The translations under genes were made by a program, and so were the position numbers. A stretch of 64,000 bases of DNA from Trichostrongylus colubriformis. Lineage: Eukaryota; Nematoda; Chromadorea; Rhabditida; Trichostrongylidae. The stretch covers positions 53,152,873 through 53,216,872 of the forward strand of contig OZ022257.1 of the NCBI GenBank assembly GCA_963978905.1, written 5' to 3'. Positions 10,461 to 64,000 of the stretch are shown piece by piece. Below the pieces are notes generated by a model. It had not been told where the DNA came from, made no database searches, and saw nothing but the letters and a program-made list of their open reading frames with translations. Every line of letters starts with the position of its first letter. Position 1 is the first letter of the stretch.

Positions 10461-10611
10461 CCTTTTCTATAGATCGTATCTGCTTTCAGTTGAAAATTGT
10501 ATTTAATGGAAAATGTGACATTTTAATTGTTTATATTACATAAATCCGAGTTTATCACATAATGACCAAACAAATATCAGTCCTCATTCTTTAACATTCA
10601 TCTTGGACATA

Positions 10612-10732
10612 AGTAGACCAGCTTCGTAGCCAAGGTCTTGAAATCAGCAGCGAATCAATCGTCCTGCAAGACAAACCCTTACATGGGCGACGTGACCCCA
10701 TACCAAGCACCGGAACACTCACCATATACCCG
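10612..10732 (+). repeat. Dispersed repeat, copy 2
   Basis: This copy starts AGTAGACCAGCTTCGTAGCC and carries GGGCGACGTGACCCCATACC near its 3' end. It aligns over about 110 bp to the copy at 27,422-27,530 (AGTGGACCAGCTACGTAGCC). Two copies lie within 300 bp here and the third is in an intron of the micro-exon gene, so this is a mobile or dispersed family. The class is unknown. Confidence 0.5.
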
Positions 10733-11691: not shown

Positions 11692-12563
11692 TTAGGCTGT
11701 CCCGAAAGTTCCGGAACACCTTGGCGGACAAGGGTTTTCGGGCCTTCCCGCAATGGTTAACCAGGGCATTTGTCGATTGACTTTGAGGAACGTTCCATGC
11801 CATAGGCATATAAGGATTCGCGCCTATCCACAAAAGGAATAGAGCTCGAAATGGACGAGACGTCACTCCGAGCATTGTACCTCTACGAGTTCTGCCGAGG
11901 CAGTTCCATAAGGGGAATGGTCCAAATAATCAGCGTCGCATGTGGAGCAAGCACAACTATCCACCGTTGGTTCACCCGCTTCCGTTCTGAAGATATAGCC
12001 CTGAAAGTTCAGCAACGCAGTGGCCGTCCATCTGAGCTGACGATCAGCTTTCCAGGAGAACTGTGCAGGAGAACCCCGCGGCAAGCACACGTGAAGTAGC
12101 CCTGCTACTCGGTTGTGGGAACACCACAGTCGATCAGCATCTCACTCGGCTGGGATACCGGAAAGTGCTCTCGACTTGGACACCCCATGCCCTATCCGAC
12201 AGCCGACATCTGGCAACATTCACCCGGGACACCTTGGCGACGCTAGGCTGGGAAGTGCTACCACATCCTCCATATAGCCCCGACCTCGCACCGTCTGACT
12301 ACCAGCTGTTCGCCCCTCTACAGAACTTCCTAAAGGGGAAACAGCTCAAAAAGCAGTGCGACATCGAGATGGAGGTCGAGCGTTTTTTCGCGAGGCAGTC
12401 TCAACAATTCTGGGCGGATGGTATTGGCAAGCTTCCGGATAGATGACAGAAGGTGATAGATAGTAATGGTGGATATCTTGTTAGCTGAAATGCGTTTATG
12501 TTGTAAAGAAATAAATTTGAAAAAAAGTGGTCGGGGTGTTCCGGAACTTTCGGGACAACCTAA
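11692..12563 (+). mobile_element. Internally deleted mariner element (872 bp)
   Basis: The ends are near-identical inverted repeats starting TTAGG(C/T)TGTCCCGAAAG and running into TTCCGGAACACC, flanked by TA duplications (11,690-11,691 and 12,564-12,565). Inside, on the plus strand, is the N-terminal helix-turn-helix part of a mariner transposase (frame from 11,851, ending around GRPSEL). A frame change leads to ENPAASTREVALLLG, and then comes a direct jump to the C-terminal part with HPPYSPDLAPSDY and WQKVIDS-like residues. The segment with the first two catalytic aspartates is missing, so it cannot encode an active enzyme. The ends look intact, so it could be mobilised in trans. The N-terminal half resembles the cecropia/Hsmar1-like mariners known in hookworms; that placement is from memory. 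Confidence 0.93.
11851..12446 (+). pseudogene. Mariner transposase remnant
   Basis: This is coding residue of the mariner at 11,692-12,563. The frame from 11,851 gives the N-terminal DNA-binding region up to about 11,040+1,000 bases (GRPSEL). A shifted frame from 12,063 continues with the second helix-turn-helix and then the C-terminal YSPDLAPSDY block, ending at the stop near 12,446. The remnant has one frameshift, and about 400 bp encoding catalytic aspartates 1 and 2 are absent. Confidence 0.85.
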
Positions 12564-13763: not shown

Positions 13764-16700
13764 TTAAGCTAATATACCTATTGGTTCATCTTCGATACCA
13801 CATGCATTAATACCACGAGCAAAATATACATAACCGTGTTCAACACCCCATGTATCACCCCAACTGTTCTTCACGATCCAATACTTCTCCCCGGTTTCAC
13901 TCGTACCGTAACCGGTAATCAGCAATGAATGCAGTCCGACCACCTTAAATGAGATTATTCGCTAGAAGCTGTCCATTGGCAACTGTAGTGAAAACGAACC
14001 TTATTTTTACAATCATATGCACTTGGTGTGAACACACCACCTTTATAGGGTTTCATATCAGGTGTCACAGCGATTCCGATGTTGACTGGGCCAAATCCTA
14101 CCAGCCAATCAATCATCGACTGCTCGTCAGGATGGATAAAGTAGGCTACCTGAAAAAAAAACCTTCCTGATTTCACTACTATAAACAAAAGCAAATGGGC
14201 GGAGGTGGTGTAGTTACAGGTGGCGCACATTCTACTCTCATGGTGCAACGATCAAATCCCGCATGAACGCCCGCCAGGCTAACCATGCCTTCCATCCCTA
14301 CGAAGTCGGCAAGTCGGTACCAGACTTGTCTGGGAGGATAAAAGCACTGACTTGTACATTGGCTAGCCACCGCAAGTCATTGTATGAGCCACATCACATT
14401 CACCAGGCACCACGATTCTGATTGGAACTGGAATGTGCGGCGCATTCCAAGACAGGATAGATTAGCACTAGAAAACTTTGAACTTTATCCACTTGAACAG
14501 AGACAGCGAAGCTCTTTGAACCAGTCATTCCGGGAACACGCCATGTACTCAATGGCGCCCATTTTGCGATTGTTCAGGGAGTCATGAATGCTGCGGGGGC
14601 ACTTATGTAGCCCTCAAAAGAAGTTACAGAATTCAAAATATGTATGCTTACTTGAATTTTGGTTGTGTTTCCGTTGACATCGCATGTGTTCTGTCGATGA
14701 GCGACGTACGGCAAATCAGCAGCGAAAGCCAGACCATTCCGATGAATGTAACTAAATGAAATGTAATTTTGAGAAAAATCAGACGAAAAGTCATTATCAA
14801 GAAAGAAGCTCTGGCCATCTGCGGCCCTAACAACCCTAAAATGTCTAAAAATTCACCCGCAGAAAAACGAACTTAGCGGTGTTGTAAAAGTATCATCATA
14901 GCTAATAAATAGTGCATTAGTGTGAAAAGGGAACAGGGTCAGTTTTTGCCCATGGTATTTGAAATTCCGTTTCCGTATATTGAAGGAAGGGTAGAATCAA
15001 ACAATAAAACTGCTATCATTCACACACCGAAACGCCTTATCTTCGTCACCGCCATCGCAAGCGTTGTCTTGGAGATCGCAATCGAGTAGGGTTTGCTCGG
15101 AAAGATTTCGCATTTCCCCATGAGCGATCGCCCATGCAGCTTCTACAGTGGCCGTAGCAGCAAAAGCCCAGCAAGAGCCGCATTTCCCTGAAAATTTTAG
15201 TAATTTAAACAATAGTAATAGCAGAGTCATTATAGTAATTATTCGGGGTAAAACTCTGCTACCTTGTGCTTTTACTGGTGACACGACATTTCTTGCTCTC
15301 CAGTCGAAAAAGTCTGGAGGAGGAGCTGCTCGTTCCAGTTTAGGAGGATTGCTTTGAATGAATGTAGCTTCCTCTCGTAGCTTTTTATAAAACGACTTGG
15401 GTAAAAGCATCTGAAATTTTTTTGTATATTTTTCGTACATTGGTATTCTATGGACATGCTCACTTTTCTAAACTCCTCATCGGTCCAATCACTCAGGTCA
15501 TTTTCGCCAAGTTTAGCCTTGGGCTGTCCATTTCTGAAGAAAGGTACATTAAAAAACTTTTGGTAAAAGACGTTTTCAGAAAAAAAAAAGACTAGTAGCG
15601 ACTATGTCTTCCGCCTTTTTGAGGCTCTAAGCTACCGATAAACCGAGCAATGAAAACAAGGTTGCCCTGGTCCGACTCGCTCAAGTATATACATGAGTTC
15701 CGAGCACCTTTGCATCTGCGGCACTTTCATTACGGAAAGAGGCGGCTGCCGTACTTACGATCAGTGAGGGTCAACTGTTGATCAAGAAAATCCTGAGAAA
15801 GTGCCGATTCATAGACGAGAGGAATCTGCGGAGGGTAACTCAAAGGAATTGCCCACGAAAAAATGAGTTTCTTTGTTAGCCATATATTTAGTTGTATTCG
15901 CCGAATAAGGACCGCATGCAAAACATCACGCAGAAAATTGAGAATTCGGGTAAGATACAGCTCCCCATTTCTCTTCCGGGTGGGTGAGGCTTCCGAGTAA
16001 AAGACCCGTCCGTTCCCGCCGCGGTTGGGGACGTAGAGTGGGACTGTTGCCTGAATTTCTGTTTTGTTTTCTGTGTAACCTGAATTGTTACCTGAATCTC
16101 CGACCGCGACGGACGACGGGGTGGGCACTTGCTTGAAGGCCCACTCACCCGGTCGGGAATTTGTGGTGCCGTATCTTAGTTCGATTCACAGTTTTTTTCG
16201 GGTGTAACTTTGCATGTGGCCCACATTAGGCAAACATAGCATAATTATGTATATGGGTAATGAAAAAAAAACTTCTTTTTCTGTGGACGATTCCTTCAAG
16301 AGAAAATGGGTAAATCATTTTTCCTGATGAATTTAGGAAAATTACAGAGCTGTAGAGCTCTCTCCACTTGACACCCCTCTGAGGAGTTATTGCGTCGTAC
16401 GGTGGCTGTAAGTGAAGGGGGTCTTATTGTCATACCCTTCAGTTGGGGAATGCCTCGGTCAATTTCCGCGACATTTTTCTTTTCGATTTTGTCCTAATAT
16501 CTTACTTGTTTAATTGGCTGATTTCTCGCATATGCTTCTCGTATACTTTGAATCGTCTCAACATCTCTGCGTCGTCCTTATAGGTTCGGCCGAATCTGAA
16601 AATGAAGCATTCATATCTGTAAAAACCAATATGATAAGTAAAAATATACAGGTTGCTTGAGTTGCATTTATCAATCTTTCAGGTTTAAATACAAAAAAGA

Positions 16701-18150: not shown

Positions 18151-21100
18151 ATGAGACATTCCCCGACATCCGGCGATAGCAGCAACGATCTTGTAGCATT
18201 GCTGCTAGTGCTAATCATCGCCATACTCGCATACTGGTACTACTTGCAGAAGCAAAGGGAGGTAAGCACTTCTTTAGCTCTTACTGTGGGCTTCCTGGAC
18301 AACTACCTTCTTCCATTTACACTAACAGTTGAGCAGTAATACTGTAGCAAATGCCTGAATCGTACTGCACCTACCCTTGCTGTACCAATTCCTGACCACA
18401 GTGCTCTATTGAGGCCGAACTGACCACATTTAGTTATACTTTATAATAACGTCCATGCACAGTTGCCACATTTATTAACTGCCGTCCTTGCGTGACGAGA
18501 GCAAATCATGAAAGACTCCAACCGCGGCACGCGTTAACCGCACCGTCGCAAGTGGCCTCGCGCCTCAGATGAATCATCACACTGTATCCGCAAATGGTGG
18601 CCTAGTTTCCGTGCGGCTGCGAATGGTGTCTCAGCTTGAGCTTAATAATGCGCTATTGTAATGCTTCTGTATTGGAACACGTGCAATGCAAATTTCGCTA
18701 ACGTCCGACTTTGTTCTTCATTGGGGTCATGCATACAAACCATAACTATTAGAGCGTAGTCAGTGCCGTATAAAAACCATCTACGATAATGGTGGGACAA
18801 CCATGAATGTCACACCGACTGCTAGAGATAGCCCATTATGAAGAAGACTCGACTCGATTGCCGTGCTAGTAACAGTGTTAGTAATGAATGAAGTGATAAT
18901 TTATCGTTATATCGTTATAACTCAATCCTTTCATAGCATAGACCACTTACTTTGTGTGCCTTTTGTCGGTATGTCGGTCGGATTGTCTGTTGATACGTCT
19001 GGTCTGTCTGTTCGGGCGTGACTGATTGTGATGAAGGAATACTTTCACAGCGGGTTGAGCAGAAGATACATAGTGGCAATATCAATTTGAAACTGTGCTA
19101 GCACCTCTTGCTCATGTGAACCCTTGCTCGTAGCCACCATCAGGTTGTAGAGGTCGCACAGCTGCCAGTACAGAAGGAAGACGCACAGATATGGATTTGT
19201 TGTGGCAGATTGCCGTCTAGACTAGACCGGCTGAAGTTGTGGGCTGCTGTAGATCGCAAGTTTCCTATCAAGTCATGGGCAGCATCAGCTTGAACCACAG
19301 ACGGCCGCGAAATGGTAAAGGGTCACGGCATCAAAGCAGCTCAGACGCAACTTTAATATTTGTGAACACCGACGAGTAATGAATCCATATCGGCACTGAA
19401 CTGTCTACAGTCGCATTTGAATGTAACTACCAGCACTCTGTCCAGCAAGTCGATATTGAGTCTTCTTCTTCTCCTTCTTTTCCTTAGCGTTAGTCCCGCG
19501 CCGTCGCAGGGTCCGCTGTTCTTGTCGGACGTCGACCCTTCCTCCTCTCCGGGGCTTCCTCCGCCGTGGCCTACATTTCAGTGAAGTCACTCTTGATGAC
19601 GTCCCTCCACCTCTTCTTCGGGGCTCCCCGTGGTCGCTGCGCTTCAAACTCCAGCCTTTTTTTATCGGGTAGTCCTCTGATCTCCTCAGCCCGTATCCAT
19701 ACCATCACAGCCGTTGCTCTCGAAACTACAACTGGACGGGAGTAGTCTGCGTGATCGCTCTCACGTCCTCGTTCCTGATCTTGTCCAGTCGCGTTTAGCC
19801 GCGTCCATTCGTCCAGGGTAAGACTGGACCAGCCGTGGCTTCCCTCTTTGGGCTTTCGTTTCGAGCAAATTCCTCGTTCAGAAGCTCATCGAAGTACTCC
19901 TGCCACCTTCTTTTCACCTCGGCCGGCTTCCTTAGGATGACATCGTCATTGCTTTTTAGGGACTTTAGCTTCCTGGTGTCCTGGGTAGTCCGATATCGAG
20001 CTTTGGCCAGCCTGACGACGAACTTTTCCGCATCCCTTCCAACTTCTCGTACAAGGAGTCCATTTCCCTGTTCTTGGATTTGGCTACGGTTGCTTTGACA
20101 AGCCTCTTGCAACATTTGTACCCAGCGAGGTCTCCTTGGCTTCGCTTGTGCCAGCGTTTCAACATTTCCTTCTTCCGTTTCACCACTCGCTGAACCTCCT
20201 CGTTCCAGTACCAAATCGCCTTCCTCTAAGGCCCCCTCGAGTTTCACTCAGTATTTCCTTTGCGCACCGTAGGATTACCTTGGCGGCCCTATACCATGTC
20301 TTCTAAATCGCACCGCTGGGGTCTGAAAGACCAGCCTTCATTACCCTCCTTTTTAGATCATTCTTCTCTGCCCTGTGTAACTTCCACCATCGTATCCTAC
20401 GCTCAGTACTTACCTTCGTTTCCTTTGGAAGCTCTATGGCAATGTCCGCTAGGAGAGGCCTGTGCTGGGTGGCAGTGCCACACCTTGATGCTCTTTACAC
20501 TTTTGAGGAACGGTCTCTTTACGAGCACACGATCTATTTCTGTTTGCCTTCTCCCGCTGCTATAGGTTCCCTTTTGAGTCTCCCTTTTTGCGAAGAACGT
20601 ACTACAGACAGCCAGGTCATGGACTGTGGTCAGGTCAAAGATCCTCTCTCCCTCAAAAGTCCTTGCCTCAATGCCTCTGCCCCCGTGCACTCTATCTAGC
20701 CCTTTCCGGTCACTGCCGACATGGCCGTTCAGGCCGCTCGCTACGATGAGTTAGTCATTGTCCAGAACTGCCTTGATGGCCCATCGGGGCTCAGAGAGAA
20801 CTGGTCTTTTTCAACTTTGGGGCAGCCAGCTCGCGGTACGTACACTGTCATTATGGTCCAGTACTCCCACTTGTGTCTATCCTTACAGCTAGGAATCGCT
20901 CGCTCATCCTGTCCACTGCAGATACGCAGTCCTCGAGCCCCTGCTACGGCTACGGCTGCGGCGCTTCGTCTGGTGTCCCCTCCATTGTAGCAGCGTTTGC
21001 AAGTCCCGGGAAGTGGCTAACCTGATGAAATGCAGAGTCCTGGGTCTTGCCGGTCAGCGACTCCACATTAAAAGACCCGGTTCGAACTGACTTTTTTTGG

Positions 21101-24100
21101 CCGAAGTCGTTCACCCCTCGGTAGTCTTCGCCTACTGACCACAGACGGGCGAGGGTTCTGCGCGCCACTTTCGGGTGACGTCCTAGATAATAGCTGATCC
21201 TTTTTGCGACTCTATACATGTTGTTATGACTGGGGTTTTCCATCAGCCGGCCTACCAACCTGGGCCTGACGCTGGTAACGTCACCATTTTTGCAATTTCT
21301 CGCAAGGCACGGTTTTGTGCCTCGGAGGGGATCGAATCCAGTGCCCCTTTTCTCTCAACCACTTGGCTATCCCTGCTTCCAAGTCCATCGAATCCAGTGC
21401 CCCTTTTCTCTCAACCACTTGGCTATCCCTGCTTCCAAGTCCATGTTGAGTATTGTTACATTATGTCGCGGCTGTGGTGTAGCTAGGAGTAGAATGGATT
21501 ATATCCAAATAACTGAATGGAACTTTCGAATACCCATAGCTGCTACAATCTTTGCGGTCCTTGGACAACAGCTTAAGAGTTCAGCCTCACTATAATGAAC
21601 GTAAGGCAGCGTTCATGGTTTTGGAATTTGAGGAATCATGGAAATTGGGGAAAGGGATAAGATATATAATGATTGGGAGAATTGCTGAATTTACGTTTTT
21701 TATGGAAATACAGATTTGCGGAATATGTGGAAAAGCATTAGATACCTATTAATTCCCATACTACGAAGAGACAAGAGGATTAGAGAAACTAAGAAGCGCG
21801 ATTTTGCAGTTCCGCTAAATCCAAAACTATGAGCGCGCCCTAGGGCACAACGGCAAATTTAAGATATGCAAGCTGCAGCGTGATCATCAATATGGCGGTG
21901 ATCTTTAGTAGAAGTGTTGGTTTTCCAGAAACATGAAGAAGCAGAAGAAGAAGAAGAGCAGCAGCTCAAACATAAAAAGTGGGACCTACCAGTCGATAAG
22001 GTGAAGACATTCCCTTTAGATCAGGTGAGAGGGCTTTGAAATGAAATACTTTGACATTCAGCACTAGGTGACCCGGATCCAAGACGTGTATGTACATTCA
22101 CTTATTCTAGAAATCTCCCTCAGTTTCACCACCAAAAGAAGGTACACAATCAAAAAAGAAAACTCAATCGCAACAGACAATTCTACCACAACCCAATTTG
22201 CTAACGCCACAGGAAACTATCGAAATTGAAGTATGGTTTTTAACTATCGGAGCATTCGCAAAAATCATCTCAAGCAATAGCCTGTGTGTGTGGCTGGGTC
22301 TGTGTGCTACAGGTGATCCAACTGAGTGGAACAGCAGCATCACCGAATAGCGTGCTCAAGGCGAAACTGCTAGAACATCCTAAAGAGCAAGCATACTGGA
22401 ACCATTTCAACACATCCTGCTCGAAGCAGTTTTCAAAGCCTGGGTACTCACTTTGTGTGTTATGACTTCTTATGAACATTTTAGCCAAAGCAAGAAGACC
22501 AACCACCACCAGAAAGTGTGCAGACGGCACAGCCTCCCGGTCCTGTCGATGAAAGAGTAGGAATTACACTTCTTTAACGCAAACTGATATTTTTCAAGAT
22601 TGTTTCGTTTTTGAGATCTAGCTAACGTAGTATCCGGGACCTATGGACTCATTCTCAGTGTTCTGATTCTTTATGAACATTTTAGCCAAAGCAAGAAGAC
22701 CAACCACCACCAGAAAGTGCGCAGGCTGCACAGCCTCCCGGTCCTGTCGATGAAAAAGTAGGAATTACACACCTTTAACGCAAACTGATATTTTTCCAGA
22801 TTGTTTCGTTTTTGAGATCTAGCTAACGTAGTATCCGGGACCTATGGACTCACTTTCAGTGTTCTGATTCTTTATGAACATTTTAGCCAAAGCAAGAAGA
22901 CCAACCACCACCAGAAAGTGCGCAAGCTGCACAGCCTCCCGGTCCTGTCGATGAAAAAGTAGGAATTACACACCTTTAACGCAAACTGATATTTTTCAAG
23001 ATTGTTTCGTTTTTGAGATCTAGCTAACGTAGTATCCGGGACCTATGGACTCACTTTCAGTGTTCTGATTCTTTATGAACATTTTAGCCAAAGCAAGAAG
23101 ACCAACCACCACCAGAAAGTGCGCAGGCTGCACAGCCTCCCGGTCCTGTCGAAGAAAAAGTATGAATTACACAGCTTTAACGCAAACTGATATTTTTCAA
23201 GATTGTTTCGTTTTTGAGATCTAGCTAACGTAGTATCCGGAACCTATGGACTCACTTTCAGTGTTCTGATTCCTTATGAACATTTTAGCCAAAGCAAGAA
23301 GACCAACCACCACCAGAAAGTGCGCAAGCTGCACAGCCTCCCGGTCCTGTCGATGAAAAAGTAGGAATTACACACCTTTAACGCAAACTGATATTTTTCA
23401 AGATTGTTTCGTTTTTGAGATCTAGCTAACGTAGTATCCGGGACCTATGGACTCACTCTCAGTGTTCTGATTCTTTATGAACATTTTAGCCAAAGCAAGA
23501 AGACCAACCACCACCAGAAAGTGCGCAAGCTGCACAGCCTCCCGGTCCTGTCGATGAAAAAGTAGGAATTACACACCTTTAACGCAAACTGATATTTTTC
23601 AAGATTGTTTCGTTTTTGAGATCTAGCTAACGTAGTATCCGGGACCTATGGACTCACTCTCAGTGTTCTGATTCTTTATGAACATTTTAGCCAAAGCAAG
23701 AAGACCAACCACCACCAGAAAGTGCGCAAGCTGCACAGCCTCCCGGTCCTGTCGATGAAAAAGTAGGAATTACACACCTTTAACGCAAACTGATATTTTT
23801 CAAGATTGTTTCGTTTTTGAGATCTAGCTAACGTAGTATCCGGGACCTATGGACTCACTTTCAGTGTTCTGATTCTTTATGAACATTTTAGCCAAAGCAA
23901 GAAGACCAACCACCACCAGAAAGTGCGCAGGCTGCACAGCCTCCCGGTCCTGTCGAAGAAAAAGTATGAATTACACAGCTTTAACGCAAACTGATATTTT
24001 TCAAGATTGTTTCGTTTTTGAGATCTAGCTAACGTAGTATCCGGAACCTATGGACTCACTTTCAGTGTTCTGATTCCTTATGAACATTTTAGCCAAAGCA

Positions 24101-27100
24101 AGAAGACCAACCACCACCAGAAAGTGCGCAAGCTGCACAGCCTCCCGGTCCTGTCGATGAAAAAGTAGGAATTACACACCTTTAACGCAAACTGATATTT
24201 TTCAAGATTGTTTCGTTTTTGAGATCTAGCTAACGTAGTATCCGGGACCTATGGACTCACTCTCAGTGTTCTGATTCTTTATGAACATTTTAGCCAAAGC
24301 AAGAAGACCAACCACCACCAGAAAGTGCGCAAGCTGCACAGCCTCCCGGTCCTGTCGATGAAAAAGTAGGAATTACACACCTTTAACGCAAACTGATATT
24401 TTTCAAGATTGTTTCGTTTTTGAGATCTAGCTAACGTAGTATCCGGGACCTATGGACTCACTCTCAGTGTTCTGATTCTTTATGAACATTTTAGCCAAAG
24501 CAAGAAGACCAACCACCACCAGAAAGTGCGCAAGCTGCACAGCCTCCCGGTCCTGTCGATGAAAAAGTAGGAATTACACACCTTTAACGCAAACTGATAT
24601 TTTTCAAGATTGTTTCGTTTTTGAGATCTAGCTAACGTAGTATCCGGGACCTATGGACTCACTTTCAGTGTTCTGATTCTTTATGAACATTTTAGCCAAA
24701 GCAAGAAGACCAACCACCACCAGAAAGTGCGCAGGCTGCACAGCCTCCCGGTCCTGTCGAAGAAAAAGTATGAACTACACAGCTTTAGCGCAAACTGATA
24801 TTTTTCAAGATTGTTTCGTTTTTGAGATCTAGCTAACGTAGTATCCGGGACCTATGGACTCACTTTCAGTGTTCTGATTCTTTATGAACATTTTAGCCAA
24901 AGCAAGAAGACCAACCACCACCAGAAAGTGCGCAAGCTGCACAGCCTCCCGGTCCTGTCGATGAAAAAGTAGGAATTACACACCTTTAACGCAAACTGAT
25001 ATTTTTCAAGATTGTTTCGTTTTTGAGATCTAGCTAACGTAGTATCCGGAACCTATGGACTCACTTTCAGTGTTCTGATTCTTTATGAACATTTTAGCCA
25101 AAGCAAGAAGACCAACCACCACCAGAAAGTGCGCAGGCTGCACAGCCTCCCGGTCCTGTCGATGAAAAAGTAGGAATTACACACCTTTAACGCAAACTGA
25201 TATTTTTCAAGATTGTTTCGTTTTTGAGATCTAGCTAACGTAGTATCCGGGACCTATGGACTCACTTTCAGTGTTCTGATTCTTTATGAACATTTTAGCC
25301 AAAGCAAGAAGACCAACCACCACCAGAAAGTGCGCAGGCTGCACAGCCTCCCGGTCCTGTCGAAGAAAAAGTATGAATTACACAGCTTTAGCGCAAACTG
25401 ATATTTTTCAAGATTGTTTCGTTTTTGAGATCTAGCTAACGTAGTATCCGGGACCTATGGACTCACTTTCAGTGTTCTGATTCTTTATGAACATTTTAGC
25501 CAAAGCAAGAAGACCAACCACCACCAGAAAGTGCGCAGGCTGCACAGCCTCCCGGTCCTGTCGAAGAAAAAGTATGAATTACACAGCTTTAGCGCAAACT
25601 GATATTTTTCAAGATTGTTTCGTTTTTGAGATCTAGCTAACGTAGTATCCGGGACCTATGGACTCACTTTCAGTGTTCTGATTCTTTATGAACATTTTAG
25701 CCAAAGCAAGAAGACCAACCACCACCAGAAAGTGCGCAGGCTGCACAGCCTCCCGGTCCTGTCGATGAAAAAGTAGGAATTACACACCTTTAACGCAAAC
25801 TGATATTTTTCAAGATTGTTTCGTTTTTGAGATCTAGCTAACGTAGTATCCGGGACCTATGGACTCACTTTCAGTGTTCTGATTCTTTATGAACATTTTA
25901 GCCAAAGCAAGAAGACCAACCACCACCAGAAAGTGCGCAGGCTGCACAGCCTCCCGGTCCTGTCGATGAAAAAGTAGGAATTACACACCTTTAACGCAAA
26001 CTGATATTTTTCAAGATTGTTTCGTTTTTGAGATCTAGCTAACGTAGTATCCGGGACCTATGGACTCACTTTCAGTGTTCTGATTCTTTATGAACATTTT
26101 AGCCAAAGCAAGAAGACCAACCACCACCAGAAAGTGCGCAGACGGCACAGCCCCCCGGTCCTGTCGATGAAAAAGTAGGAGTCACACATCTTTAATGTAA
26201 AATGATATTTTTTCACGAATGCATACAGCCAAAAGAAGAGCGCACAAAGGAGGACACTGTGCGAACAGCTAAACTTCCTGAATCTACCGGGGAAAAGGTA
26301 GAAATCTGTCGGCGTACCTATGAGAATATAAGGTTCATAAAATAATTTTTTAGCCACAGCAGGACAGCGTGCGTACAGCAAAACTCCTCGGTTCTGCGGA
26401 AGGCAAGGTATTATAAAAACTGTTGAGTGTAGCTCGATTCGCGGTTCTCTGATTATGATCATTTCTAGTCGAAGGAAGAAGCAACACAACAGTCGCAGCA
26501 AGGAAGTACAGAAAAGGCTGTTTCTACTGGAAAAAAAGCAAGTTTTCAGTGTTCCGCAGAAGGGAAAAATATTGAAAACTGCATTCTAGCCACAGCAAGA
26601 GAGCGTGCGGACAGCAAAACTCCTCGCTCCCACTGAAGGCAAGGTAATGTTAAAGTTAAGTGTAGCTGGATTAGCTGTTCTTAGAATATGAAAATTTCCA
26701 GTCGAAGGAAGAAGCAACACAACAGTCGCAACAAGGAAGTACAGAGAAGGCTGTTCCTACTGGAGGAAAAGTAATTTCTCAGAGTTTCATAGCAGTGGGG
26801 ATATTAATAGCATTCTAGCTGCAGCAGGAGAGCGTACGAACAGCAAAACTCCTCGCTCCTTCTAAAGACAAGGTAACGTAAGTTTAGGGTACCGCCAGGT
26901 GCGTAGAAAACGAGTGACATATTCTGTACGAACAACAAGTCTGTACAGAAGAGATGATCTGCGTCGAAACTACTATTTAAAAAGCGTGCTTTAGGATCTT
27001 CACATCGATTTCCCGCGCATCATTTCGAGCTGCAAGTGATCACTATTCCAAGTTACTGTAGAGCGGATAACGTTCGCAGCTGGCTGTCTTAGCTAATCTA

Positions 27101-30100
27101 TCATCATTTACCCCCCACAGCTAGTGATGCAGACTGGGCGTGACGTGCAAGTCCGACAGTGTTCCAGGAGGTCAGGTTACCAGTATTGTGTGGGGGATAA
27201 TTTACTATAGAAACGACGATATTAGCATTTTTGTGACACTAAAACATTGTATTATGGACTGTTCAGTAACTAGCTTTCACCTTCGTCATAGATTGAATCT
27301 GCTTGCGGTTAGAGATTGTACTCATTGGAAGACGCCCTGACATTTAGGTAACAAATATCCGACTTTACTACATATTTGACTCCACAAATACCTTCACTTT
27401 TTGGCCTTTGTCTTTGACGTGAGTGGACCAGCTACGTAGCCAAGATCTTAGTAAATCAATCTACTCGTCAAGTAAAACCCCCTGGGTGACCTGACCCCAT
27501 ACTAATCACTGGAACACTTGCAACACACCCGCAGACTGGACAAAAGGGAGAGAGGATTTTGCTTTCCTATTTCTCGGGTTATTTAACGTTTTATTCTGTT
27601 TCTCCACTGTGACACTACTGTCATCAAGTCAGCCTTTACATTCCAAATTATCCCACAAACTGCCAGAAACGTCACTAACAGTGTTTAAAGGCACCAGTAG
27701 GGGTGAATAAAAACTGAGATCTGGGAGTAAATGTTCTCTGGAAACGAACCTCCTACTTCAGAAGATGTCATATGTGGCGAAAATTGCCACATATGACATC
27801 TTCTGAAGTAGAAGGTTGGCAAAACGCGGCTTGGGGTGTTATGACGACTGCGCAGCACGGCATCTCGTTCTGTGGTCCTGCGCCTAAGTAAGTCGGAGGG
27901 ACGGGAAAACGATCGCGGCCAACTGATTCAGTCTCTGCCGTGTCTACAGTCCAACCTAGTCAGAGACGCAGAGGGACGCGAGAGAGACGGAGGGATTTCA
28001 GGTTCCTATTCCTTGGTTTTTTCGCAATTTTATGTTGTTCTTTCTGTACTCTTATATTGCTGAGCACCTCTACTTTCATAATCTCCCGAATCGCCAAGTT
28101 TTCCCCTCCCGGTGTCTTTAAGTATAAATAGACTCGCTCGACTCAAACATTTCAGTCAAAGGAAGAAGCAACACAACAGTCGCAGCAAGGGAGTACAGAA
28201 AAGGCTGTACCTACCGAAGAAAAAGCAAGTTTTTAGTTTTTCGCAGCAGGGAAAAGTATTGAAAATTGCATTTTAGCCACAGCAGGAGAGCGTGCGGACA
28301 GCAAAACTCCTCGCTTCTGCGGAAGGCAAGGTAATATAAAACCTGTTAAGTGTAGTCCGATTCGCGGTTCATAGAATATGGTCGTTTTCAGTCGAAGGAA
28401 GAAGCAACACAACAGTCGCAGCAAGGAAGTACAGAAAAAGCTGCACCTACTGAAGAAAAAGTAATTTCTCAGAGTTTCATAGCAGTGGGAATGTTAAAAA
28501 TAGCATTTTAGCCGCAGCAGGAGAGCGTGCGGACAGCAAAACTCCTCGCTTCTACCGAAGAAAAGGTAATGCCAAAGCTCGGCATAGACAGACTCACCTC
28601 AAAATTTCCACATTTTACAACAAGGAAGTATAGAAAAGGCTGTACTTACCAAAGAAAAAGTGAATTTTCAGCTTTCATAGATGTGGGGAATTTTGAAAAT
28701 AACATTTCAGCCACAGCAAGAGAGCGTACGAACAGCAAAATCCATCGCTCCCACTGAAGAGAAGGTAATAATAACTATAAAGTGATTTACGGTCATCAAA
28801 TTCAGTATTTTCAGCCAAAAGTAGAAGCAACACAACAGAAGCAAGATGAAAGTGTACGAACTGCAATACCTCTTGCACCTGAAGAGAAGGTAATGTTTAC
28901 ACAGCCTAAGAATGGTTAGATTTTTAGAAAAATGTTTTCAGCCTCAGCAAGAAAGCGTGAAAACGGCAAAGCTAGCACTGCCCCCCGATGAAAAAGTATG
29001 ACTTCGCTGTCTAAATGCATTGCATATGAATAAAAATCTCAAGCATACTTTCAGCAAAAGGATGAGGGCAAGAAGTCTCAGCAGGAAAGCGTACGAACTG
29101 CAAAGCCCCTTGAAGCTAAAGAAGATCAGGTATTCTTCCAATGCATTTGTAAGCCCCAACACTTTTAGGTTGTAAGGAAAGTTTTGGCCGGGGCTCGCAA
29201 TTCCATTTTCAGGAGATCATAACTCGGCTCAGACACGTCTTTTCTCACAGAATAAGCACCATTTGATTCGCTACACTTTTGGTTATATCAAAGATTTGCG
29301 TATCTCATTCGGATGAAGAGCTGACGATATATTGCGCGAAATTAAAAAAAAAGTCTACTTCAAATCACCATTCTTTCTGAACACTCTGCTGCTGAAGGAG
29401 CTGTGCAGATGTTTGGGAAAGAGGGACTTAGTTAGCGTCTCTGGTGAGTATAATAGAGAGTTAGTGCTTCAGCCTACAACTGCTTCAATTACACGAAGAA
29501 GATTTGTAGAAAAGGGGCTCGCGCATAGCTGCTCCGGGGAGTCCCGCGCCACCTTTTTCTTGGGTTTTTCCAAATCAAAGCTACTAGAGGGGGCAACCAA
29601 GTTTGTGTGTTGAGAGCCAATACTTTTGGACATTTCCTGCAAGTATAGGCGCTCATCGCCTTCTGCTATTTAAGTTAGAGCGATTTCATCAGTTGAAAAT
29701 GCGTCATCTCATTCACATTTCTGTACTATGATACCGGGGACAAAGTATTCCATCTAATGCTCCACCCCCTCCCCTTGCAGCACTCACACTTGTGGTCACC
29801 TTCACTGGGACTCGGCTAAACAAGTTTTCTTGAGGTGAAATCATCTAAAAAGTGCCATTTTCGCAGTACTTTGAAATTTCCCTAATAATTCAAAAACCTT
29901 CTGGGATTCCAAATAAAACATATAGGCAGAAAGAGCAACTTTCAGTATATCTAAGGAGCATAATATGTAAGCTGATTCATGTTGACGCGATCTGAGATGA
30001 ATTTATCTTGTGAACGCGAAAAACCGGCTAGAACTTTCCTTACGACCTAATACAATGCATACAAACAAATGGCAGAGCCCATTTAGGTTTACTTTTTTCT

Positions 30101-33100
30101 CAGATTTTTTATTTCAGATTCACTATATAAAAAAGGTGCACTTTCGTTAATATGGTGGGAGATGGGGTCGTCAATGTATAGTTTCAGCCAAAAGTAGAAG
30201 CAACACAACAGAAGAAAGATGAAAGTGTACGAACTGCAATACCTCTCGAACCTGAAGAGAAGGTAATATTTGCACTACCTGAGAGAAGTTCGGGTTTTAA
30301 AAAAAGGTTTCCAGCCGCAGCAAGAGAGCGTAAGAGCAGCAAAGCCAGCGTTGCCTGTTGATAAAGAGGCATACTTTCTCTGCCTGTGCACATAAATAAA
30401 AATTCCAAGCTTATTTTCAGCAAAAGGATGAGGGGAAGTCTCAGCAGGATAGTGTGCACACTGCAAAGCCTCTTGCACCTACAGAAGAACAGGTATTTCT
30501 TCGATGGATTTGTAAAACCCAACACTACGGTACACAAATGGCAAAGCCAGATTTACTCACATATAAAGGAGTGTATTTTCGTTTATATGTGGGAGGTCGA
30601 GTCGTCAATGTATAGTTTCAGCCAAAAGTAGAAGCAACACAACAGAAGAAAGATGAAAGTGTACGAACTGCAATACCTCTTGCACCTGAAGAAAAGGTAA
30701 TGTTTGCACTACCTGAGAGTAATTTGAATCTATAGAAAACTATTTTCAGCCACAGCAAGAAAGCGTGAGAACGGCAAAGCCGGCATTGCCTACCGATGAA
30801 AAAGTAAGTTCTCCATTGTACTAGTGAGCTGCGGTCTTCAAAACACGCTTTTCAATAATACAGCCTACGATCAGCGATTCTAGTTCTACCTAACTATGAG
30901 GAAATAGTCTAAATACATTCCAGCCAAAGGAAGAAAGCAAGTCACAGGAGGGGAGTGTACGAACAGCAAAGCCTCTTACACCTACAGAAGAACAGGTATT
31001 GCTGCCGACGTGGAGACGCTTCGCGGTTCAAAATATAACCCCTGCCGAAAAGAGCCGAAAAAAGAGCTAAAAAGGAAACCCTTCAAACAGCAAAACCTCT
31101 TGCACCCGATGAGAGTTGTTGTACAACAAGGCTTCCTTCATCCGAGGGAGAGGGGCAGATTATTTTTACAAATGTCGGTGATGTCAGTCCATGGGCAAAA
31201 AAATGGGTTTTTAGGGAAGGGGTTAGCCTATCCACTGGGGAGCAAGGGATTGAGAAATACTGGAGAGGCTTCTGAAATTCTGACATATAATCCTTTTCAA
31301 AGAAAGCGACAACTTTCAAAAAATTTTAGTTAGCATTTACTGGGCAACAGGGGAATCTTTCGCGTTTTTAGGCAGATAAAGGCAAGCAACGTCACATATA
31401 TAAAAAGAATGAAGCATTCGTACCAAGCCCTGGTACAGAACACATGTTGACTGCCGTGTGCATCGATGATATAGGTCGAGATGTAAGGTTTTAAAAAATT
31501 GCAAACTTTCTCAATAAAGCAAAAAAAATACGCACTGAAATTACGGTATTCACTGCAGACTGCGCACAAGTACACGTTTCTGTCCAATTCTTCCAAGAGA
31601 AATGACGCTGTTCCATTCGCTGAAGAACTTTCCAATGAGGAATTGGAAATATATGTAAGAATCGAGTGGCTAGTTTGTGATCCACTGCAGAGTCAAGAGT
31701 GTCAAAGATGTTACAGGAAGGCATGAAGGTATGCCCTACCCAACAAGATGCATCCTACAGACGAAGGTTGGATGGCGTACTGATGTCTATGTTCGATAAA
31801 GCTAAAGAAGCAAGAACGAAGAGATCAACAGTGAAGAATGAAAAAGTGAAAGAACGTAAGTTTTCTTGGAATGAACCTTTCTCATGGAAGTAGATAGGCT
31901 CAAGAGGCAGTGTCGCTAAGTTCCTTCACCTACTACATAGAGGTACGCGATCTCGTACGAGGGATTTCCGTGCCACCTTTTCAAGCCCAAAACGCAATCC
32001 TAGACGGGGTAGAAACAATTGTGAAAATTCACCTTTCTTCGTCGGCTCTGTATCGCAAACTGTTCTCGATCACCTTTTCACCCTAGCTTGAAAGTTTTTG
32101 AGCTCGAAATACCACTGTAGACTGATTTAATAGGTGTTGGTATACCAATGTGGCCTACATGGTCGTCGATCAATCGAAAAGTTTTGCACTTCCTGCAGTG
32201 GTCCTGAAACAGTTGGTAAAAGAGTCCACCACCGGTGCTCACCAGGTGCGATCCCTTCTCGCTGATCAACCTTTGAAAATACCTCAACAAGAATCTTCTT
32301 GGTCTTGGAGGAGGGGAAGATATGCGCTGAAATGGAGTGCGTCTCCGCTGCAAGGCTCGATCGCATGGGTCTCATTTCCTCTGCAGATTGAGGGGCTACC
32401 GTCTGTAATCACTTGAGATCATACGGCTCAGGAATTTCGATGGTTTTTTTTTCACTTCCATCGATGGTCCTCATTTTTATCTATCTCTGAGTAGTAGACC
32501 TATGGGTTTGTCTCTAGCCAGAAAATAAGGGTAAGCTGTACGGCGTCAACTCATAATCATTGGAGCTTTCGAGGCCCTTTATTATTAGGTTACAGAGAAA
32601 GTTTTGGCCGATTTTTCGTGTTCACAAGATAAATTCAAATCTCAGAGCGCGTCAACATAAATCAGCTCACTTATTGTGATCCTTAGATAGATTCTCCTTA
32701 GATAGACAGAAAGTTGCTCCTTCCGAATATATGTTTCATTTGGAATGCCACAAGGTTCGAATCATTAGGGAAATTTGAGGGAACTGCGAAAATGGCACTT
32801 TTTAGATGACTTCACTTCACGCGTTCTTGTTTAGCCGAGTCCCAGCGAAGGTGACCACAAACGTGACTGCTGCAAGGGGAAGGGGTGATGCATTGGACTG
32901 AACACTTTGTCCGGTTTCAGAAGTGTAGATTTGAGAACGAGTTGCTCGACTTTTCAATTGATCAAGTCGCTTTAACTGAAACGGCAGAAAGCGATGAGCC
33001 CTCATACCTGCAGGGGATGAGCAAAAGTATTGGCCTTCAACACACAAACTTGGTTAGCCTCCGTAAGTACCTCCGTACGCGACCCCTCAAGGCAGCTATG

Positions 33101-35039
33101 CTCAAGTGCATTCTCCACAATCTTCTTCAGTAATTGGAGCAGTTGCAAGCTTGAGCCCTTACTCGTCCATTTTATTCACCAGATCTAGCGCTAAATAAGG
33201 TGCACTTTCCTAATTATGTGGACAGCTTCTTCAGCAGCAGTGTGTTCAGAAAGATAGTGATTGAAGTCGAGTTTTTTTATTTTGCGCTATATAAATCATC
33301 AGCCCTTCATAAAAATGAGATATGCAAATATCCTTGACTTTGCCAGAAGTGTAGGGAATCAAATGGTGCTTATTCTGTGAGAAAAGATGCAGTCTGAGCC
33401 GAGTTATGATCTCCCGAAGTTGAAATGACAAAAACCGGCCAAAACTTTCCTTACAGTCTAATCTGATTTTCCACATTCCTCCCTTCTCATTCTTTTCCCA
33501 GTACTCTGAACTTCCATCGGAGCTTTGCCTGTTAATGTATGCTGTGAACATTTATGGCTGTCATTGTTCAAATAATTATGATGGCTTCATTGGCACCGAT
33601 TGTAAGCCCAAGTGTTATATATGGGTTATGGTTATTCAAATTGAATACTCTGTGAGTATTATCTCGGATTAGGATGGGGGTTGTGTGCAAATTGTAGTTG
33701 CCTAAGTACGTTTCGCAAAGCGCGTATGCACCACCAGTACACTCAGATATTTGGGATCAGTGCATGGGACCATAAATCTTAGCCACGCCCCAACTGACGC
33801 TCGATCCCTCTTCGGATGGAGCTGATCCGTTAGTCTGGAGTTTTGCCGAGCTCACGGAAGATGAGCAGCTCGGTCTCTCTCGTAATCGAGCGGGGAGTTT
33901 CCCAATGCCGTCGCGAATGGCTTGGTGATGGACTCTACGTGGTAGGGGGCTCACCCTGACTCACGAGGTGTCGCGTGATGCGACCCTCTTTCTCTACGCT
34001 CGGTGAAGAGTGGATCTTTTCCCATGTGGAAAGTGTAGTAGTTCGCAGGATGCGACTGCAGGTGCAGATTGGCCTAAGCGTGGTCTACGCGATGGATTCC
34101 TTTTTGGATTCAAAATGAAGTGGATGACATTACCAATATCTGTTGAGCAGATTGGTTCATTGATCCAAGATGGCGGGTGAGCTCGTGGCCAACACCCTTA
34201 AAATCATTTCTCTTTGTCTGGTTGAAGTCTAGAATCCATTGGTGTAGATTCTAGTACTTTTAAGTACTGTGTGGCATTTTGCCATTCAATATTGCGGTAT
34301 ATATTCGCTTGACAAAAAGGTCAATCGCGCAGTGCTGCGTTATGTAATAAAAGGTGAAGACACTTTTACGTAGCACCCAGGTCTGATCACGAAACCGTGG
34401 ATCAAGTGGCTGTCTAGGCTTTTTGGATTTCCTCTCATCTCTTGGACGGTCCATTTCCAACACAAGCGGATATTATGTTCAGCTTCCCATTAAGATGAGA
34501 CTTTGTGAGAATAACGTTACGGTGACTCGCTTCTACTACATATTATAAATTTCTTGTACCTCTACTTGTCATTGTAGTACTAGAGTTTTTCATGCATTTG
34601 CAGCTAAAAATCGAAAAATTAAATCACGCGAAAGCAGCAAGGAGCGACGACGGAAAAGGAAATCTGCCGAGGAATTGAAAAAGCTCAATAAAAAAGAAAC
34701 TTCGAAGAGTTCAAAAAAGAAAGGAAAGCTTCGCAAGAGACTGTCAAGAAAAATTAAGTTGAAACAAAAGAAAGTCGCTGTGGTTTCAGACGTCGACAAT
34801 AGTGGAAGTAAGTTACTCACACGTTGAACTGATCTTATCCTTCCTTCTTCTTTCCAACCGAATTCGTAGCTTTGGCGATTCAGCCTTCGCTAGAATTTGC
34901 TTCACTCGCGAATCTGTTCATGCGCACGAGTCTGAACAGCTGCAGTTGCAAACAATTGCGTCCTGGTCTGCTGCAAGCAAATTTGGCTGCGGATGCTGCA
35001 TCATTGCCAAGTATAAATGTAGTAATGATGTTGAAGTAA
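18151..35039 (+). CDS. Unrecognised membrane-anchored repeat protein built from tandem micro-exons
   Basis: I do not recognise this family. About 47 exons are chained by consensus splice sites, giving about 1,245 aa. Exon 1 (18151-18261) encodes MRHSPTSGDSSND, a transmembrane helix (residues 14-32, VALLLVLIIAILAYWYY) and QKQRE. Exon 2 is 21929-22024 (acidic, EEAEEEEEQQ). Exon 3 is 22111-22230. Then follow 19 copies of a 72-nt exon, 20 exons of 54-75 nt, and five tail exons: 31372-31482, 31520-31654, 31708-31855, 34604-34807, 34870-35039. Every repeat exon is phase 0 at both ends, so copies can be added, lost or skipped without changing frame. The repeats are rich in P, Q, E, K, S and T and are probably disordered. 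Exon 34604-34807 is extremely basic (KERRRKRKS, KKKGKLRKR). The organisation resembles schistosome micro-exon genes, and triadin/RRBP1-like proteins with a helix before a repeat tail; neither is claimed as homology. The last exon could instead splice at GTAAGA (35,036). A LINE and two TIR elements sit in its introns. Confidence 0.8.
19405..21260 (-). mobile_element. RTE-type non-LTR retrotransposon relic
   Basis: Minus-strand frames give fragments of a LINE apurinic endonuclease. First comes RTGSFNVESLTGKTQ near 21,050. Then comes a block near 20,690-20,490 containing HGGRGIEARTFEGERIFDL and TYSSGRRQTEIDRVLVKR, the classic EN C-terminal signature. After it lies the linker before reverse transcriptase (VVKRKKEMLKRWHKR, 20,186-19,795). 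The RT core is absent; the sequence jumps to the element's 3' region (RRGGRVDVRQEQRTLRRRG) near 19,600-19,480. Stops and frameshifts are common, so it is dead. It lies antisense within intron 1 of the micro-exon gene. Confidence 0.8.
21332..21443 (-). repeat. 56-bp tandem duplication with tRNA-like box A
   Basis: The unit TCGAATCCAGTGCCCCTTTT… (56 bp) is repeated exactly at 21,332-21,387 and 21,388-21,443. On the minus strand it contains ATAGCCAAGTGGTTGAGAG, which fits an RNA polymerase III box A of a Ser/Leu-type tRNA. This is followed by a T-loop-like GGATTCGATCC. A tRNA-derived SINE or tRNA fragment just upstream (minus strand) of the LINE relic is likely. It is not a functional tRNA as far as I can fold it. 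Confidence 0.35.
22475..26174 (+). repeat. 201-bp tandem repeat, 19 copies of one exon plus its intron
   Basis: The period is exactly 201 bp (for example TGAACATTTTAGCC recurring at 22,473, 22,674, 22,875), with 18 full periods and a 19th exon. Each unit holds a 72-nt exon (first 22485-22556, last 26103-26174, step 201) between TTTTAG and GTAGGA/GTATGA, plus a 129-bp intron. The exon encodes 24 residues: PKQEDQPPPE, then SAQAAQPPGPVDEK. The outer copies are most divergent (QTA instead of QAA; DER in copy 1). The inner copies are nearly identical, introns included, which points to recent homogenisation. Copies 4, 8, 12, 15 and 16 encode VEEK instead of VDEK. Copies 4-7 and 8-11 form a duplicated 804-bp higher-order block. 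Confidence 0.93.
27422..27530 (+). repeat. Dispersed repeat, copy 3
   Basis: It aligns to 10,612-10,732 from AGTGGACCAGCTACGTAGCC to the GACCCCATACTAATCAC block. It lies in an intron of the micro-exon gene. The class is unknown, possibly a SINE or MITE. Confidence 0.5.
27753..27811. repeat. Perfect 26-bp hairpin, 7-nt loop
   Basis: CTACTTCAGAAGATGTCATA runs on into TGTGGC; it is followed by GAAAATT and then the exact reverse complement. One mismatch further out extends pairing to 27,747-27,817 (AACCT/AGGTT). A transcribed copy would fold strongly, since it lies in an intron of the micro-exon gene. It could be a short MITE or a small-RNA hairpin; nothing distinguishes these here. Confidence 0.85.
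28618..28659 (+). pseudogene. Degenerate repeat exon
   Basis: The 3' part of a 69-nt-type exon is present (QQGSIEKAVLTKEK, then GTGAAT). The first half of the exon and its TTTCAG acceptor are gone. It sits exactly where the sixth 69-nt exon is expected. It is probably skipped, which keeps the frame because neighbouring exons are phase 0. Confidence 0.7.
28815..30995 (+). repeat. Three-exon module array (25 + 18 + 24/25-aa exons, three modules)
   Basis: Module 1: 28815-28889, 28942-28995, 29055-29129. Module 2: 30188-30262, 30315-30368, 30421-30492. Module 3: 30622-30696, 30750-30803, 30924-30995. Exon types encode PKVEATQQKQDESVRTAI…, PQQESVRTAKPALPTDEK and QKDEGKSQQDSVHTAKPLAP…. All share an ESVRTAK-like core with the two-exon array, so both arrays derive from one ancestral exon. 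Modules 1 and 2 are split by an 880-bp TIR element. Exon 30315-30368 is followed by GCATAC instead of GT. A further decayed copy lies near 31,050-31,125. Confidence 0.88.
29168..30047 (+). mobile_element. 880-bp TIR element, copy 1 (TA target)
   Basis: The left end GGTTGTAAGGAAAGTTTTGG and the right end, read as reverse complement GGTCGTAAGGAAAGTTCTAG, are inverted repeats next to TA dinucleotides (29,166-29,167 and 30,048-30,049). A diverged copy lies inverted at 32,588-33,458; internal blocks such as TCGCAGTACTTTGAAATTTC match. No transposase is recognisable; the 93-codon frame inside resembles nothing I know. It is a probable non-autonomous Tc1/mariner-superfamily element inserted between repeat modules of the micro-exon gene. 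Confidence 0.75.
31050..31125 (+). pseudogene. Decayed repeat exon after the last module
   Basis: Text similar to the 72/75-nt exons survives (GCAAAACCTCTTGCACCCGA, equal to AKPLAPD). An in-frame stop, a poor acceptor and no clean donor suggest it is no longer used. It marks a former fourth module. Confidence 0.55.
31856..34603 (+). other. Late intron of the micro-exon gene (2.7 kb)
   Basis: The donor GTAAGT at 31,856 follows exon 31708-31855 in phase 1. The acceptor TTTGCAG ends at 34,603 and opens the basic exon in the matching phase. The intron contains the inverted TIR element copy (32,588-33,458) and otherwise no identifiable feature. Confidence 0.65.
32588..33458 (-). mobile_element. 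871-bp TIR element, copy 2 (inverted)
   Basis: This is the same family as 29,168-30,047 but in reverse orientation. Its ends carry GGTTACAGAGAAAGTTTTGG on the left and the complement of GACTGTAAGGAAAGTTTTGG on the right, next to TA. The two copies lie about 2.5 kb apart as inverted repeats within one gene, so they could pair in DNA or RNA. Confidence 0.72.
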
Positions 35040-36758: not shown

Positions 36759-43703
<6,945 letters not shown>

Positions 43704-55536: not shown

Positions 55537-55610
55537 GGTGTCGCTATTGTAATGGATTAGCTCACATGCCCTGAAAGCATGAAATGCGGGTTCGAGTCCC
55601 GTCCGACACC
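55537..55610 (+). tRNA. tRNA-like sequence, possible tRNA-Ser(UGA) pseudogene
   Basis: The 74-nt sequence has a 7-bp acceptor stem (GGTGTCG with CGACACC). It has a 5-bp anticodon stem (CATGC/GCATG) with loop CCTGAAA, and a T arm GCGGG-TTCGAGT-CCCGT. A TTTT run follows at 55,616. Against a functional tRNA: position 33 is C instead of U, the D arm (ATTGTAATGGATTAGCTCA) pairs poorly, one extra base follows the T arm, and a serine tRNA should have a long variable arm. It may be a tRNA pseudogene or SINE head. Confidence 0.4.
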
Positions 55611-55830
55611 GAAGCTTTTGCCTATAACTCAGCATCCTTGTTGTAAAAGTCTTAGTTCAAAAAATAAGACTTTCAAATAAGGACCGATCGCTCCACAACA
55701 GATTTACAGAGAATATTTTCTAAGAGATTTCGACGGTTACGTGTAAATAGGTTTCTTGCAGCCGTATCGTTTTTTTTTTGATAGCAGATTGTTGAAGTTT
55801 ATAGCAGATTGTTGATGTTGACAAAATAAA

Positions 55831-55934: not shown

Positions 55935-64000
<8,066 letters not shown>

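Follow-up and report, generated by a model that had tools for sequence, protein, structure and literature searches.

The DNA analysed here (hereafter the window) is a stretch of 64,000 nucleotides from the strongylid nematode Trichostrongylus colubriformis. On its forward strand, between positions 18151 and 35039, a chain of 48 exons with usable splice sites can be read from an ATG at 18151 to a TAA at 35039; the chain was built by hand from exon candidates. A first exon encoding a hydrophobic helix is followed by three linker exons, then by 39 repeat exons (19 in a tandem array and 20 diverged), and finally by five C-terminal exons, termed c1-c5. The predicted product of the full chain has 1263 aa (about 138 kDa), and the predicted protein without the 39 repeat exons has 382 aa. 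The features of the chain are as follows, all on the forward strand.

18151-18261, forward strand: exon 1, with the start codon and the sole strongly hydrophobic stretch (MRHSPTSGDSSND-LVALLLVLIIAILAYWYY-LQKQRE); an in-frame TAG lies upstream of the ATG
18262-21928, forward strand: intron 1, 3667 nt
21929-22024, forward strand: exon 2, E/K-rich linker; further in-phase donors exist
22111-22230, forward strand: exon 3, S/P/K/Q-rich linker
22313-22390, forward strand: exon 4, uncertain; end set by phase, weak GC donor
22485-26174, forward strand: tandem array, spacing 201 bp, of 19 repeat exons, each 72 nt long (22485-22556 for the first and 26103-26174 for the last); most frequent peptide PKQEDQPPPESAQAAQPPGPVDEK
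26229-26407, forward strand: diverged repeat exons 24 (26229-26297) and 25 (26354-26407)
26469-26872, forward strand: two-exon blocks 26-27 (26469-26537, 26590-26643) and 28-29 (26702-26770, 26819-26872)
28156-28565, forward strand: two-exon blocks 30-31 (28156-28224, 28277-28330) and 32-33 (28392-28460, 28512-28565)
28711-28764, forward strand: exon 34, a diverged repeat exon
28815-29129, forward strand: three-exon block 35 (28815-28889), 36 (28942-28995), 37 (29055-29129)
30188-30492, forward strand: three-exon block 38 (30188-30262), 39 (30315-30368; weak GC donor picked for phase), 40 (30421-30492)
30622-30995, forward strand: three-exon block 41 (30622-30696), 42 (30750-30803), 43 (30924-30995)
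31372-31482, forward strand: exon c1, C-terminal region, phase 0
31559-31654, forward strand: exon c2, phase 0
31693-31855, forward strand: exon c3, ending in phase 1; acceptor 31693 picked for phase, 31717 fits too
34604-34807, forward strand: exon c4, K/R-rich; phase matches c3, frame without codon-usage support
34870-35039, forward strand: exon c5, with the TAA at its end; codon usage not above the null

The original prediction had described about 47 exons with proper splice sites on one strand, among them some 39 repeat exons of 54-75 nt with phase 0 at both ends, and both descriptions hold: the exon count is 48, and all 39 repeat exons (72 nt in 21 cases, 54 in nine, 69 in five and 75 in four) are in phase 0 at their 5' and 3' ends. 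Its description of the exon boundaries as TTTTAG/GTAGGA-like fares less well at the donors, since GTAGGA is found in only 14 of the 39, alongside six GTATGA, three GC donors and 16 other GTAxxx. The 38 introns between repeat exons are mostly short (15 of 48-61 nt and 19 of 129 nt, the others being 120, 145, 1058 and 1283 nt). Introns 1-45 are in phase 0, and introns 46 and 47 are in phase 1; this run of 45 consecutive phase-0 introns, a few of whose ends were picked for phase, compares with 6 of 12 in a malic enzyme gene nearby. Preservation of the frame decided where exons 4 and 39 stop, both at weak GC donors (gcatac), and where c3 begins, so that phase agreement at these junctions is not independent evidence. 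Phase guided the fitting of the outer parts of the model, exon 4 and c1-c5, which are its least certain parts.

The malic enzyme gene lies on the reverse strand, with exons between 43712 and 37933 and 12 introns resolved against the T. colubriformis protein, to which it is identical at 426 of 427 residues (the odd one falls at a manual join); the nematode origin proposed earlier for this DNA is supported by the match. Within its 1586-nt intron is an ORF (41266-42034) that we take, from its signature, to be a mariner-like transposase, although Pfam returned nothing in 41611-42018. Two forward-strand ORFs, 12036-12446 and 61113-61880, are presumably fragments of mariner-type transposases as well; neither 12036-12446 nor 61470-61880 gave a Pfam match. 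An exon of a papain-family cysteine protease (Pfam PF00112) occupies 14997-15467 on the reverse strand, and a tRNA-Ser (TGA) gene occupies 55537-55611 on the forward strand.

Several introns of the chain carry sequences of their own. Intron 1 contains what we take to be a broken LINE on the reverse strand, in whose three ORFs there was no Pfam match, and a perfect 56-bp tandem duplication (21331-21444). In intron 29, a 71-bp stretch (27747-27817) matches its own reverse complement at 90%, and nearby 27288-27531 matches 10469-10732 at 67%. An element of about 0.9 kb is present in two copies that are 76% identical and oppositely oriented, one in intron 37 (29165-30052) and one in intron 46 (32583-33461).

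Coding constraint and splice sites

The proposed frame is open in all 39 repeat exons, and the other two forward frames are open in 33 and 12 of them. Among 18 of the 20 diverged exons (exons 24 and 37, which lack a partner of equal length, were left out), the pooled pN/pS ratio comes to 0.31 in frame as against 0.93 and 1.21 out of frame, and none of 1000 column shuffles reached 0.31. Variable columns make up 32 of 90 third codon positions and 30 of 180 first and second positions (p 0.0007, which serves as a guide only, the columns not being independent). By these measures the diverged repeat exons are coding and evidently under frame-specific purifying selection, and the earlier claim that the repeat exons encode peptide is upheld by this constraint; in the array, variable columns are too few to reveal selection. 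Codon usage was scored against the malic enzyme gene with a null of 300 nt whose 95th percentile is 0.000; c1-c3 and the diverged exons (0.025 each) and one array exon (0.049) exceed that percentile, and exons 1-4 (-0.029), c4 (-0.102) and c5 (-0.045) do not.

Exon-like sites, defined by a TTYYAG acceptor, an open 48-81 nt in phase and a GTA, GTG or GCA donor, number 38 on the forward strand of 22440-31000 (8.56 kb, 4.4/kb) versus 11 in the remaining 55.4 kb (0.20/kb), a density about 20 times that of the remainder, although the copies are related and the sites are thus not independent events. The reverse strand has 17 over the whole window (0.27/kb), one of them opposite 22440-31000.

Raw similarity gives a mixed picture. 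Copies of the three-exon blocks share 96-97% identity in their first exon and 73-77% in the intron right after it, where the baseline for introns is 64% at random with a 95th percentile of 75%; the second exons (36, 39, 42) are 70-87% identical and the introns after them 75-80%, and the third exons (37, 40, 43) are 80-86% identical. In the two-exon blocks, first exons are 88-93% identical and introns 75-94%. Conservation of exons above introns does not hold throughout, and it is therefore the frame test, not raw similarity, that bears the argument.

At the donor +5 position, G is found in 19 of 19 array exons, 4 of 20 diverged exons, 7 of 8 other exons and 9 of 12 malic enzyme donors, and is rarer in the diverged donors than in malic enzyme (p 0.004). 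No difference in U1 pairing energy is seen between the diverged donors and those of malic enzyme (p 0.83); the array donors, which represent one lineage, have a mean of -4.2 versus -6.35 kcal/mol. Four introns are GC-AG (after exons 4, 26, 30 and 39; 22391-30420), two with gcaagt and two with gcatac. The first base is C or T in every repeat exon (39/39) and A or G in 11 of 12 malic enzyme exons. For 18 of the 19 array exons a CAG is present 27 nt upstream, and splicing at it would introduce an in-frame stop every time. Alternative or weak splicing of the exons would fit these features, which do not amount to proof of it; weak donors were considered as proof of skipping and set aside, the U1 energies of the diverged donors being no different. 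The symmetry of the exons, on which the original prediction rested its idea of exon skipping, stands as a matter of structure: with phase 0/0 throughout, any subset of the 39 can be removed without a frameshift.

Growth of the repeats at a single locus

The tandem array has a period of 201 bp, with 18.7 copies at 97% homogeneity, and among its 17 internal copies 2 of 72 exon columns and 9 of 129 intron columns vary. The diagnostic variants of the copies are arranged in a four-unit pattern. Three features bear on the gain and decay of repeats.

22856-24774, forward strand: four-unit higher-order repeat, a 1115-bp perfect self-match at 804 bp lag
28618-28659, forward strand: fossil repeat exon, only the 3' part; no acceptor seen
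31051-31113, forward strand: fossil repeat exon without a good acceptor; frame open beyond it, to 31152 in the match

The diverged exons fall into blocks, with a likeness of 84-90% between the two-exon blocks (26-27, 28-29, 30-31, 32-33) and of 82-84% between the three-exon blocks (35-37, 38-40, 41-43). The array exon and the diverged exons are apparently related (4 of 2000 shuffles were as good). Exon 4 was also tried as a diverged repeat and rejected, its likeness not being significant (139 of 2000 shuffles as good). The four-unit duplication together with the two fossil exons suggests the birth and death of exons, although the fossil at 31051 might instead belong to an alternative last exon. 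From these patterns we infer growth by repeated unequal crossing-over or conversion, with a unit of one to four exons, the older copies having probably spread as two- and three-exon blocks. A change in copy number, proposed earlier as a source of isoforms, is substantiated as a recent event by the 1115-bp perfect match at the four-unit lag.

In the 331-Mb, 52-contig assembly, with the best candidates scored, all matches fall in this gene (3 of 3 for exons 1-3, 3 of 3 for c1-c3 and 32 of 32 for repeat peptides), so that these tested parts have a single locus. In the protein database, the 247-aa tail found no match at E<=1 among 1163 candidates (proteins of about 136-432 aa), and a shortened chain of 608 aa found none at E<=0.1 among the best 7996 candidates by shared words (about 334-1064 aa), searches that would miss any relative lacking annotation, exceeding about 1064 aa, strongly diverged or absent from the 7996 scored candidates. 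As a control, pieces of malic enzyme found the T. colubriformis protein first, and the 120 matches listed were mostly from nematodes; since T. colubriformis and strongylid proteins are thus found, an annotated relative within the searched length ranges is unlikely. The database entry for the T. colubriformis malic enzyme is incomplete and derives from a contig of 28.9 kb, and the annotation of the species may therefore be missing the repeat-exon gene.

Pfam gave no match above its cut-off in exons 1-4 with two array exons, in the 20 diverged exons or in the tail (the best below it, FAM163 at E 0.003 and SARAF at E 0.004, lie in the helix region); NCBIfam gave none above its cut-off either (its best, at E 0.0002, scored 21.8 bits where 80 are required), the tail matched PDB entries only at E 0.26-0.45, and two scans of viral contigs yielded pattern matches without a confirmed relative. 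The earlier statement that no homologue could be named agrees with these results, none having been found within the length and candidate limits of the searches.

The predicted protein and its interpretation

The predicted protein comprises a short N-terminal segment with one helix, a low-complexity arm and a basic tail. Hydropathy peaks at 2.58 in exon 1, and no other 19-residue window exceeds 1.4. The arm, of 881 aa and pI 4.6, is formed by 39 related repeats of 18-25 aa composed largely of P (19%), Q (14%), E (14%), A (11%) and K (11%); Cys, Asn, Met, Phe, Trp and Tyr are absent from it, and with no Asn the repeats therefore contain no sequons. Disordered chains typically have a composition of this kind. 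The 54-nt exons raised the possibility of collagen-like exons, which was rejected as no Gly-X-Y is present (by eye). The tail (247 aa, pI 10.1) holds the only sequon of the predicted protein. The helix is preceded by a flank charge of -1 and followed by one of 0 across ten residues (+2 for the first seven of these, by eye), which may lean, at most slightly, to a cytosolic C-terminus. The outward display from a membrane anchor that the original prediction envisaged finds no support, given these flank charges of -1 and 0 and repeats without Cys or sequons.

We propose, with a probability of about 0.5, that this is a one-locus strongylid gene for a protein of up to 1263 aa, in which a membrane anchor carries a disordered arm of adjustable length and a basic tail. 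Its exons, c1-c5 included, would be spliced into one mRNA. Each repeat would correspond to one phase-0 exon, so that whole repeats could be gained or lost by unequal crossing-over or conversion, and skipped in splicing, without a frameshift; the arm, more likely on the cytosolic side, would serve as a disordered spacer and tether, holding the basic tail at an adjustable distance from the membrane. A further reading, which we hold only tentatively, is that the gene is lineage specific and the exon a unit of rapid copy-number evolution, such that alleles differ, many in-frame lengths exist and the tether varies individually; if this were true, one locus would set the length of a membrane-bound tether that differs between individuals of one species. 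With its 39 phase-0 copies, a four-exon duplication identical over 1115 bp, older blocks and dead copies, this nematode locus offers a readable record of growth, and it allows a direct test of whether exon number varies a parasite protein.

Micro-exon genes (MEGs) have been described from schistosomes and, seemingly, tapeworms (PMC4413821), and it is conceivable, though unlikely, that the present gene is their functional counterpart, its repeats being exposed on the outside or secreted, and exon skipping or copy-number change supplying varied products where parasite meets host. Both come from helminths and have short symmetric exons whose lengths are divisible by three, making frame-safe skipping possible, as in MEG-4/Sm10.3; schistosome MEG exons are given as 6-81 bp in length, most of them divisible by three (PMC10526429), a range that includes all 39 repeat exons here (54-75 nt, phases 0/0), and a 1988 paper cited for Sm10.3/MEG-4 reported tandemly repeated exons with 81-base repeats (PMC3961193). 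The recent copy-number change in the array would also suit such a role. However, most MEGs are described as bearing a signal peptide (PMC10526429, PMC4413821), where here a single hydrophobic helix is predicted; antigenic variation of the kind found in unicellular parasites is seemingly absent from parasitic worms in the account of a 2014 survey (PMC4413821); and the diverged repeats are constrained (pN/pS 0.31) rather than diversified. MEGs also differ in scale, the longest being put at 189 aa, with introns of 100 to almost 5000 bp (PMC10526429), whereas the present gene, from another phylum, encodes up to 1263 aa and has 15 of its 38 inter-repeat introns below that range, at 48-61 nt, the 19 of 129 nt among the others lying inside it. 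No sequence relative among MEGs appears in the matches of the tail or of the 608-aa chain, a search in which MEGs fall below the length range of the longer query and repeats are hard to match. The likeness to schistosome micro-exon genes drawn in the original prediction stands as one of gene shape, in symmetric tiny exons, and does not establish membership in the MEG family.

It is similarly doubtful that the gene is shorter, with exons 1-43, or only some of the array, forming one transcript, perhaps ending near 31051, and c1-c5 being separate or not all exons. Such a gene would account for the fossil exon inside the 376-nt intron that precedes c1, the transposon-like element inside the 2748-nt intron that precedes c4, the frame of the 31051 fossil that is open past its end, and the poor codon usage of c4 and c5; yet the junction phases fit (0 into c1, c2 and c3, the c3 acceptor having been picked for phase, and 1 into c4 and c5), and codon usage in c1-c3 is above the null. 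More improbable still is a decaying or non-coding array, a satellite or pseudogene open by chance, or an array created by assembly error: the 97% homogeneity of the 201-bp array, the two fossil exons, several weak donors and the overlap of exon and intron similarity in some blocks would suit this reading, but it is opposed by the frame-specific purifying selection across diverged copies, the 39 of 39 open frames, repeat peptides that match no other place in the assembly (best candidates scored) and the diagnostic variants that the copies bear in a four-unit pattern; the array length in the assembly may nevertheless be wrong.

Among the matches listed in the literature, no paper dealt, in the parts available, with this gene or a similarly shaped nematode micro-exon gene. 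Such genes are described as hard for standard annotation in papers on MEGs (PMC10526429) and on titin PEVK exons (PMC6469411), and others may therefore be overlooked.

For a membrane-anchored, length-adjustable arm, a likeness in layout may be drawn with p180 (RRBP1), in which a membrane anchor at the N-terminus is described as leading into an extended arm of tandem repeats, with a separate domain at the C-terminus (PMC12491259); p180, however, has basic decapeptides (pI 11) and an acidic C-terminus, where the present arm has repeats of 18-25 aa and pI 4.6 and the tail pI 10.1. The exons of titin PEVK are comparable to the proposed arm: the region is reported to hold 74-109 short, repetitive exons across 41 mammals, and its most repetitive part, the authors argue, gains and loses exons by duplication (PMC6469411). 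Both thus have tens of short repetitive exons, PEVK peptides being rich in P, E, V and K. The Ig/Fn3 muscle-protein context of titin is not seen here, with no Pfam family above cut-off in the tested parts, and the arm would instead be the body of a putative membrane-anchored protein. P, E, V and K together make up about 49% of the 881-aa arm, compared with a cut-off of 54% for PEVK exons, and 13 of 24 residues (0.54, by eye) of an array exon.
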